A stretch of 64,000 nt of DNA from Halomarina salina (GTDB lineage: Archaea; Halobacteriota; Halobacteria; Halobacteriales; Haloarculaceae), in assembly GCF_023074835.1 (NCBI RefSeq), contig NZ_JALLGW010000001.1, positions 2,666,001 to 2,730,000 on the forward strand. The letters are read 5' to 3'. Positions 54,237-58,385 of the stretch are shown here, one piece after another. The first letter of the stretch is position 1, and each line of letters starts with the position of its first letter. The notes under the pieces were generated by a model. That model saw nothing but the letters and a program-made list of their open reading frames with translations. It was not told where the DNA came from and did not search any database. A program made the translations under genes and the position numbers.

Positions 54237-55935
<1,699 letters not shown>

Positions 55936-55939
<4 letters not shown>

Positions 55940-57675
55940 GGGTGTGCGAAGTACGCGACGTGTTCCTCGTCCGGGGCCTCCGGGACCGAGTCGACGCGAG
56001 CGAACCCGATGCGCTCGAACTGGACCACGTCGTCCGGGTCGTAGTCGTGGAACCCCGGTTCGGCGAAGCCGGAGACGTCCCCCTCCATCGTCCGTAACGT
56101 GACGGGGACGCTCTCACTGGCCGGAACCCAGTGGACGACCGGTACGTCCTCCTCGCGGACGGCGTCGATGTCGTCGTCGGTGAACTCGAACGCCGGGTCG
56201 CCGTCGACCGGGTCGGTGTAGCGGACGGGGCCGTACCCCTTCAGCCAGACGCGGTCGCCGACGTCCGGGACGTCCTCCAGTTCGATTCGGACGGCGTCGG
56301 AGACGGGGATGTCCCGGTTGCCACGGTCCTCGTGGTCGGGGTGGAGCGGCGGGTGGGCGGCGTCGGGTCCGCCCTCGACCGGTATCTCCGCCCCCTCGCG
56401 GACGAGGAACCGGCGGTCGGCCTCGTCGTCGACGAGTTCGCGGTTCTTCGCGTAGACCGTCGACATCGCGAGGTCCACGTCGCTGGTGGAGGTACCGAGT
56501 TCGACGATGGCGTCGACGACGGCCTGTCCCTGGATTCCGCGGCGCTTCACGCTGGCGAGCGTGGGGGCGCGCGGGTCGTCCCAGCCGTCGAGGTCGCCCG
56601 ACTCGACGAGCGACTTGATGGTCGAGGTGCTCATCTTCACGTCGTAGGCGTCGATCTGTATCTTCCCCCAGTGGACCACCTCGGGGTACTCCCAGCCGAA
56701 GTAGTCGTAGACGAATCGCTGTTTCTTCGCGGAGTCCTGCAGGTCGATGCCACGGACGATGTGCGTGATACCGAGCAGGTGGTCGTCGATACCGCTCTGG
56801 AAGTCGAGCATCGGCCACGCGCGGTAGTCGGCCGCCTCCTCGCGCGGGTGGGGCGTGTCTATCATCCGGAACGCGACGAAGTCCCGCAGCGCCGGGTTCT
56901 TGTGGTCGATGTCGGTCCGCACGCGGAGGACCATCTCGCCGCTCTCGTACTCGCCGTCGACCATCCCCTCGAACTCCTCGCGGACCGTCTCCACGTCCTT
57001 CTCGCGGTGAGGGCACGCCTCGCCGGAGTTCTTCATGTCTGAGAACTCGCCAGCCTCACAGGAGCAGGTGTACGCCCCACCGAGGTCGACGAGGTCACGG
57101 GCGTGGTCGTAGTACGTCTCCATCCGGTCGCTGGCGCGGACCACCTCGTCCGGTTCGAAGCCCAGGTAGTCGATGGCGTCGAGGATGGCGTCGTAGGCGT
57201 CGAGGTCCGGGCGCTTCGTCTCGGGGTCGGTGTCGTCGAACCGACACAGCATCCAGCCGTCGTAGAGGTCCTTGTACGTCCCGATGACGGCGGGCATTCG
57301 GGCGTTGCCGAGGTGCCACGGCCCGTTCGGGTTCGGCGCGAGACGCATCCGAATCTGGTCGTACTCGTCGGCGTTCGGGAGGTCGGGCAGTATCTGGTCG
57401 TCCTCCTCCTCGTCGGCGTCCAACTCGGCGACGGCCTCGGGGTCGAGTTCTTCCAGTCGCTCGCGTTTCTCCGCGTTCGAGAGGCCGTTGACGCGACCGA
57501 CGACGGGCGCGACGACGCCCGCTATCTGGTCGCCGTGCTCGCGGAACTCGGGGTTCTCGCCCATCAGCGGCCCCATGATGGCACCGACCTGTGCGTCGCT
57601 GTCGTGTTTGAGCGCGTTGAAGAGGGCGTTGACCTCCGCCTCGCGCTCGACACGCTCGCGAATCTCGTCGTCCAT
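55936..57675 (-). CDS. gltX: glutamyl-tRNA synthetase (archaeal type)
   Basis: A 579-residue class I synthetase that charges tRNA(Glu), and tRNA(Gln) in Archaea without GlnRS. The HIGH-like motif is W-H-L-G-N-A-R near residue 122 and the KMSKS-like motif is V-K-M-S-T-S-T near residue 346. An N-terminal helical domain of about 100 residues is archaeal. The protein ends A-Y-F-A-H-P; its TGA is supplied by the right-end TCAA of the IS. Without the IS the same codons would read proline then TAA, so the product is unchanged. Confidence 0.95.
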
Positions 57676-57775
57676 TACGCCGGGATAGCTGCTTGCGGGT
57701 GAAAACTGCGTGGGATTCGCTGCTAGGAGTTGGAGGTGGTTTCGGAGTGGGTTTGGGAGACACGGCTGTGAACAC

Positions 57776-58028
57776 CTCGAAAGCCCCCGTGCTCTCGTGA
57801 GGCGAGACGACGTAAGCACGCGACCAGCGGGAGCGCGCGCAGCGAGTCGCAGCCCACGAGAGCACGGCCCCTTTCAGTCCGCCCGCGCCGACTGATTCGC
57901 CAGCTATCGCGGGTGGACTGAAAGGGGCGAGGCGCTGGGCGAAGTCGCGGACGGGTGAGCACCGCAGCGACCGAAGGGAGCGAGGAGCACGCCCGCCGCA
58001 CCGAGTCCAGCGCCTCGGGGCTTTCGAG
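57776..58028. repeat. palindrome-rich element forming a perfect four-way junction
   Basis: Four perfect stems abut with no unpaired bases between them. P1 is 57776-57787 with 58017-58028 (12 bp). P2 is 57788-57799 with 57855-57866 (12 bp). P3 is 57867-57880 with 57915-57928 (14 bp), extended by CCCGCG/CGCGGG. P4 is 57929-57938 with 58007-58016 (10 bp). P1 continues outward with more pairs (AACA/TGTT). No ORF fits. It could be a structured RNA or a small mobile/dispersed element with terminal inverted repeats. I know no named family that it matches with certainty. Confidence 0.7.
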
Positions 58029-58094
58029 ATGTTTGCTACGCTGGCAGTCACTCGATAGAAGGTACGAGAACAGAAATCGGAGAGTTCGACTCCC

Positions 58095-58385
58095 TTACGC
58101 TGCTGCTTCCTGCTCGGGGTCTTTCATGCGCTCGACGATGTCGTTGATGAGGATGACGTCGCCGACGGCCCGGACCCAGCGGTACGGGATGATGACGCCG
58201 CGTGCGCCGCGGACGCGGTCGTCGAACAGTTCGACGTTGAGGTCGGCGAGGGCGAGTCCCGTCACCTGCTCGGTGTCGAGGTCGAGTCGGAGGTCCTCGA
58301 CCTGCCCGATGAACACGCCGTTGTTCGAGTAGACTTCCCGCCCGACGAGTGTCGTAATCTCCTGTGGACCCGCGTCTGCATCCAT
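58095..58385 (-). CDS. PRC-barrel domain protein
   Basis: A 96-residue protein formed by one PRC-barrel: L-V-G-R-E-V-Y-S-N-N-G-V-F-I-G-Q-V-E-D-L, D-L-D-T-E-Q-V-T-G-L-A-L-A-D-L and I-P-Y-R-W-V-R-A-V-G-D-V-I-L. Archaeal single-domain members are linked to RNA processing (RimM-like) or cell division (CdpB-like); the role of this one is not settled. Monocistronic. Confidence 0.88.
   Translation of the reverse strand: MDADAGPQEITTLVGREVYSNNGVFIGQVEDLRLDLDTEQVTGLALADLNVELFDDRVRGARGVIIPYRWVRAVGDVILINDIVERMKDPEQEAAA

Follow-up and report, generated by a model that had tools for sequence, protein, structure and literature searches.

The window analysed here is a stretch of 64,000 nucleotides (64 kb) from the haloarchaeon Halomarina salina. 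In the intergenic region between gltX (minus strand, start at 57675) and a PRC-barrel-like gene (58095–58385, minus strand), both named from a reading of their translations, a 253-bp sequence at 57776–58028 folds as a four-way junction in which the stems P1 to P4 are contiguous, leaving no unpaired junction bases in the minimum-free-energy (MFE) structure. The parts of this element and its flanks, with the basis for each in brackets, are:

57723–57726: CTAG, marking the outer boundary on the left at 55 bp from the terminal repeat (CTAG enrichment and phase modulo 3 around family members)
57727–57769: left flanking tract, one phase of three mostly not C here, which is not G on the outward strand (period-3 G depletion at 208–228 ends)
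57770–57787, plus strand: left terminal inverted repeat GAACACCTCGAAAGCCCC, the 5′ half of P1 (MFE fold; conserved in relatives)
57776–57787 with 58017–58028: stem P1, 12 bp (MFE pairing)
57788–57866, plus strand: P2 arm hairpin, its inner segment inverted compared with nearly all other arms of the family (fold)
57788–57799 with 57855–57866: stem P2, 12 bp (MFE pairing)
57867–57928: P3 hairpin GCCCCTTTCAGTCC...GGACTGAAAGGGGC, the most conserved part (fold; class-wide pattern matches)
57867–57880 with 57915–57928, continuing to 57887–57908: stem P3, 21 positions with one G.U (MFE pairing)
57929–58016, plus strand: P4 arm hairpin, of the standard arm type (fold; arm comparison)
57929–57938 with 58007–58016: stem P4, 10 bp (MFE pairing)
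58017–58034, minus strand: right terminal inverted repeat GGGGCTTTCGAGATGTTT, the 3′ half of P1 (fold; inverted repeat)
58035–58080: right flanking tract, with the period of three visible for about 28 nt and CTAG not kept

An IS200/IS605-type pair (TnpA, 126 aa; TnpB, 424 aa; again identified from translations) is located at 54237–55888, about 2–3 kb from the element.

The junction is the one that had been described in an earlier note on this DNA, which held that contiguous stems of this kind could not be due to chance. This is borne out: in 200 dinucleotide shuffles, a four-way junction free of linkers and with stems of at least 8 bp never arose, and the folding energy of the segment 57750–58050 lies far from that of such shuffles (z = -11.6 for the plus strand and -9.6 for the minus strand). 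The outward extension of P1 was also correctly seen, and amounts to a terminal inverted repeat (TIR) of about 17 bp (94%). The two strands of 57776–58028 adopt the same folded shape. As far as Rfam goes, the element belongs to no known RNA family: Rfam 15 gave no match in the 64-kb window at the gathering threshold and, at lax thresholds, only sub-threshold chance matches in the element (longer variants of it, described below, were also without a match), so identity with a known RNA was rejected.

The suggestion of a dispersed element proved to be right, and the possibility of a one-off palindrome cluster can be dismissed, as relatives are present both in the same genome and in other Halobacteria. 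A DNA search of the H. salina genome (4.46 Mb), completed by searching for the P3 and P1 motifs, gave at least 24 related sites, with partial matches on both strands. Across the class, the P3 pattern CCCTTTCAGTCC-N18-48-GGACTGAAAGGG was found in 60 of 391 genomes, representing 23 of 86 genera (named records include Haloarcula, Halomicroarcula, Halonotius, Halorarius, Haloterrigena, Natronolimnohabitans, Halomarina, Halovenus and Halobacterium), while the reversed pattern, used as a control, occurred in none of the 391. Nearly all of the P3 matches are preceded by NGAAAGCCC at about 83–107 bp (or about 150 or 200 bp) and followed at similar distances by GGGCTTTCN, from which it follows that the whole architecture, and not only P3, is conserved; it recurs in all families. 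Besides the full form (TIR, arm, P3 hairpin, arm, TIR), there are half forms (one TIR, one arm and one side of P3), minimal forms (TIR–TIR) and long forms, in which the P3 hairpin holds an extra structured core of about 130–190 nt. Neither the motifs nor a description of the family turned up in a literature search of open-licence papers, and the family is apparently undescribed so far.

Within a Haloarcula-type genus the number of P3 hairpins ranges from 0 to 27 per genome. Eight elements compared in the genome with 27 were 72–88% alike (80–88% for the best long matches) and included no near-identical copies. Nothing thus points to a burst in the recent past; we have rejected recent amplification, and do not claim recent transposition. 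Carriage by viruses or plasmids was likewise rejected: the P3 pattern is absent from the viral contigs of IMG/VR, and a similarity search with the window's copy gave no match in phages and, among plasmids, weak partial matches to three large ones only.

What has been conserved in this family is above all a shape. P1 and P3 are nearly fixed in sequence, whereas P2 and P4 are hypervariable yet paired. When the first 12 bases of each arm were set against the last 12, at least 10 of 12 positions formed Watson–Crick pairs in 87% of 193 distinct arms (2.3% for randomly matched arms), with all four Watson–Crick pair types in use at most arm positions, so the compensatory changes for which the earlier note had proposed a search do indeed exist. 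Even the three most variable positions of P1 are paired in 84–93% of elements (29–51% in the control), and variants of the terminal repeat co-vary at both ends by lineage. In MFE folds of 115 elements P1 and P3 formed in all 115; a simple criterion recognised all four parts in 66 of the 115, and 36 elements passed the strictest, linker-free criterion. This compensatory variation shows that pairing either matters or is regenerated, though by itself it does not separate RNA from DNA. Comparison of the arms also revealed recurrent fixed mismatches inside their otherwise hypervariable stems. Read inward, A.C mismatches outnumber G.T (76 to 32), an excess compatible with strand-biased deamination as well as with an RNA running outward from each half.

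In a full copy, two hairpin units face each other head to head (TIR-arm-P3 / P3′-arm′-TIR′). Judged from their own terminal repeats, 198 arms have the standard orientation and five are inverted (among them the P2 of the window), with 27 unclassed. One Haloarcula locus could be traced across twelve genomes. Two of these differ by a clean inversion of the whole element (315 bp) between its terminal repeats, the element being 99% identical on one strand and its flanks 89–97% identical on the other; in four species the core has been lost from the same locus, leaving both flanking tracts together with CTAG or its trace. Across Haloarcula species, orthologous copies have been retained together with conserved flanking tracts. 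In a related species (PRC-barrel protein 95% identical), the site corresponding to that in the window holds a remnant comprising the left repeat, pieces of P4 and the right repeat, and at another Halomarina locus we found an arm shortened in one version, and an excision that is nearly complete. The orthologous sites compared in two Halomarina relatives and the twelve Haloarcula genomes consist of remnants, deletions or diverged intergenic DNA and include no clean pre-insertion site, so insertion cannot be taken as proven by a clean empty site.

These observations bear on the two identities that had been offered for the element, a large structured non-coding RNA and a MITE-like sequence. The first is not borne out: given the dyad symmetry of the element and its ability to invert, the RNA would contain one sense and one antisense arm whichever strand was transcribed, and a single non-coding RNA gene is the least fitting of the readings considered here. 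The likeness to MITEs holds in part, in that there are terminal inverted repeats on dispersed, non-coding sequences; on the other hand, no target duplication or parent transposon was identified, the copies within a genome are diverged rather than near-identical, the internal hairpins have been maintained, and remnants are found in place of clean empty sites.

The elements have an ordered position with respect to genes. Gene calls made with a simple codon-composition gene finder (our own script, hence approximate) put 34 of them between tandem genes; the counts for divergent and convergent neighbours are 28 and 7, respectively. The distance from the terminal repeat to a facing start codon is usually 85–115 bp (85–110 bp in most cases), and to a facing stop codon usually 45–75 bp.

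Outward of the terminal repeats lie tracts with a regularity of their own. To about 45 bp, G occupies every third base in 7–15% of ends (20–35% for the other bases), a difference that lies 12 standard deviations away from the null obtained by randomising the phase, and that is the same at ends facing gene starts and at those facing gene ends. In half and long forms the period-3 tract is again found beside the TIR but not beside P3, and where the repeat plus tract is present in tandem copies the spacing is a multiple of three in 16 of 17 cases. CTAG, at 0.38 per kb in the element loci overall, reaches 10.2 per kb (an enrichment of about 27-fold) at 40–60 bp outside the terminal repeats, and 73 of the 89 CTAGs so placed lie in one phase modulo 3. 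We rejected it as a general feature of promoters or stop codons, its density upstream of other genes being 0.3–1.6 per kb. CTAG flanks 23 of 108 elements at both ends and 38 at one, at variable distances; with the two ends only weakly coupled and their spacing varying, we also rejected it as a target duplication, and found no constant target-site duplication around the elements. One outward frame of the tracts is poor in stop codons (4, with 25 expected). Coding is not generally supported, however: the arms are not open in the stop-poor frame, the copies have no start codon in common, early stops interrupt other copies, and the first and third positions are featureless. Tentatively, and with rather less than an even chance of being correct, the phase of the bases may imply a machinery that starts at a fixed structured end and reads or coats the nucleic acid three nucleotides at a time, which would make this an undescribed type of element; as part of the same reading, the tract would be a copy-variable stretch of 45–70 nt that avoids G at one base in three and usually ends with an in-phase CTAG.

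Three further observations on the flanks may be recorded. Upstream of the element in L170 (minus strand), a 45-nt unit made up of terminal repeat and tract is present in four unchanged tandem copies, followed by the start of a fifth repeat, and one of its reading frames consists of GAFWLFAVYYAAIAH repeats. The right flanks of L385 and L386 contain a short, AT-richer insertion with inverted ends at the flanking CTAG, with CTATAG on both sides, as if CTAG had been the target. At some ends (class II flanks, such as L114L, L121L and L163R), CTRAACAC/GTA occurs at a fixed 27–31 nt beyond the terminal repeat, and is partly complementary to the CTGTTC end of that repeat.

How might such a family be accounted for? 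Its dispersal in many copies, its terminal repeats and half units, the compensatory variation of its stems, the inversion at its terminal repeats, the deletions of hairpin or core, and its ordered position by promoters and stop codons are all observed directly. The dispersal and inversion, the symmetry, the head-to-head arrangement of half units and the co-variation of the terminal repeats by lineage together argue for an element that acts at the level of DNA and whose folded form is recognised, since the folded shape is conserved and the arm sequence is not. We put the chances at about even that the element in the window belongs to a family of DNA repeats, spread throughout the haloarchaea, that are non-autonomous, dyad-symmetric, conserved in shape and invertible. 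The form recognised might be a single strand exposed during replication or recombination, or an extruded cruciform, and the element would then work much as REPINs or integron attC sites do, as a recombination substrate made of folded DNA, spread or flipped by a putative trans-acting enzyme; for its host it may be neutral, or of slight benefit in keeping a promoter at a distance from its upstream neighbour. Against an invertible DNA repeat it can be said that we identified no target-site duplication, no clean pre-insertion site among the sites compared, no near-identical copies within a genome and no linked recombinase or transposase; the strong compensatory change also fits RNA, or a repair-type correction of quasi-palindromes, and the excess of A.C mismatches would fit an RNA read outward from each arm. 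The ordered placement and the persistence of orthologues also leave room for a cis-acting function in the host, such as that of a vertically inherited insulator or regulatory module upstream of promoters, which would act in the form of a structured RNA leader or trailer or of a protein-binding cruciform. This would suit the regular distances to starts and stops, the fewness of convergent sites, the conserved flanking tracts of the Haloarcula orthologues, the lack of recent amplification and the exact recurrence of TIR and P3 motifs across 20 or more genera, but we consider it rather unlikely, in view of copy numbers from 0 to 27 within one genus, a core missing from four related species at one locus, and neighbouring genes that were unrelated at the loci looked at; moreover, compact genomes alone would confine insertions to such places.

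It is distinctly improbable that each half unit specifies a structured small RNA, the two being transcribed divergently outward from the centre of P3. Half units do occur alone, the outward strand of the arms has more G.T than A.C mismatches, the outward strand also has a triplet phase with few stops in one frame up to TAG, and mismatches are conserved within variable stems; yet no promoter was identified in P3, the stop-poor frame is closed in the arms, the tract lacks codon-like first and third positions, many ends have early stops in each frame, and Rfam has no corresponding family. DNA hairpins are known to undergo templated correction and inversion, and this could be counted, along with the deletion remnants, the half and minimal forms and the inverted arms, in favour of regarding the elements as decaying remnants of an old transposon family (MITEs) whose stems have been kept perfect only by templated mutation at quasi-palindromes. 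From decay one would not, however, expect TIR and P3 motifs that hardly vary across an order, nor lineage-specific co-variation of the ends, phased tracts and CTAG, and we regard this origin as very unlikely.

The family has partial counterparts elsewhere. The bacterial REP/REPIN sequences, with their RAYT transposases, are similarly dispersed, intergenic and non-autonomous, their unit hairpin occurring singly or as an inverted pair, and the present family likewise has both single hairpin units and inverted pairs of them, as half and full elements. It differs in that its units are of about 100 bp and archaeal, its stems are hypervariable but paired, and its pairs fold as a linker-free four-way junction. 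As is generally known of integron attC sites, they too keep their shape while the stem sequence varies, with fixed mismatches in the variable stems; here, in contrast, there are two arms in dyad symmetry, and no cassette array or integrase was seen. Invertible DNA segments share inversion between inverted repeats, which we observed between genomes for the whole element and which extends to the arms, but no recombinase was identified here, and inversion leaves the dyad-symmetric shape unchanged. The nearest haloarchaeal work concerns the SMR and PATE sequences of Haloquadratum (PMC3119063). The SMRs of Haloquadratum walsbyi are non-coding, about 80–110 bp long, and have inverted terminal repeats, no target duplication and an unknown mobiliser, SMR-A targeting IS605-type elements (PMC3119063); as described, these features resemble a half unit of the present family. 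PATEs derive from IS605 ends, share near-terminal palindromes with IS605-type transposons and have no terminal repeats (PMC3119063), whereas our element has terminal inverted repeats. The present family differs from both in being situated by promoters and stop codons.

The rarity of CTAG in haloarchaea, and the conservation there of its orphan methyltransferase, present an open question (PMC6471742, PMC5867850), on which the roughly 27-fold concentration of CTAG at element edges has a bearing. More generally, the family would add a shape-conserved, invertible repeat that spans an entire archaeal class and is anchored at promoters and stop codons, and it occurs in a tractable genus, Haloarcula.

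Finally, we draw attention to the long variants (L083:1676-2174, L091:2030-2458, L104:1719-2097, L081:1571-2085 and L098:1720-1943). The extra core inside their P3 has the form GGCCGGGAGC-hairpin-GCGACCCGGGGAAGGGCAGGGC..., and a 56-nt module of it is also present in Natrialbaceae-type genomes, mostly without the element. Neither module nor core corresponds to an Rfam family, and the core module is possibly a separate structured RNA. In L321, where the archaeal SRP RNA gene was the only Rfam match, a stand-alone 56-nt module adjoins that gene (1501-1556 and 1724-2035).
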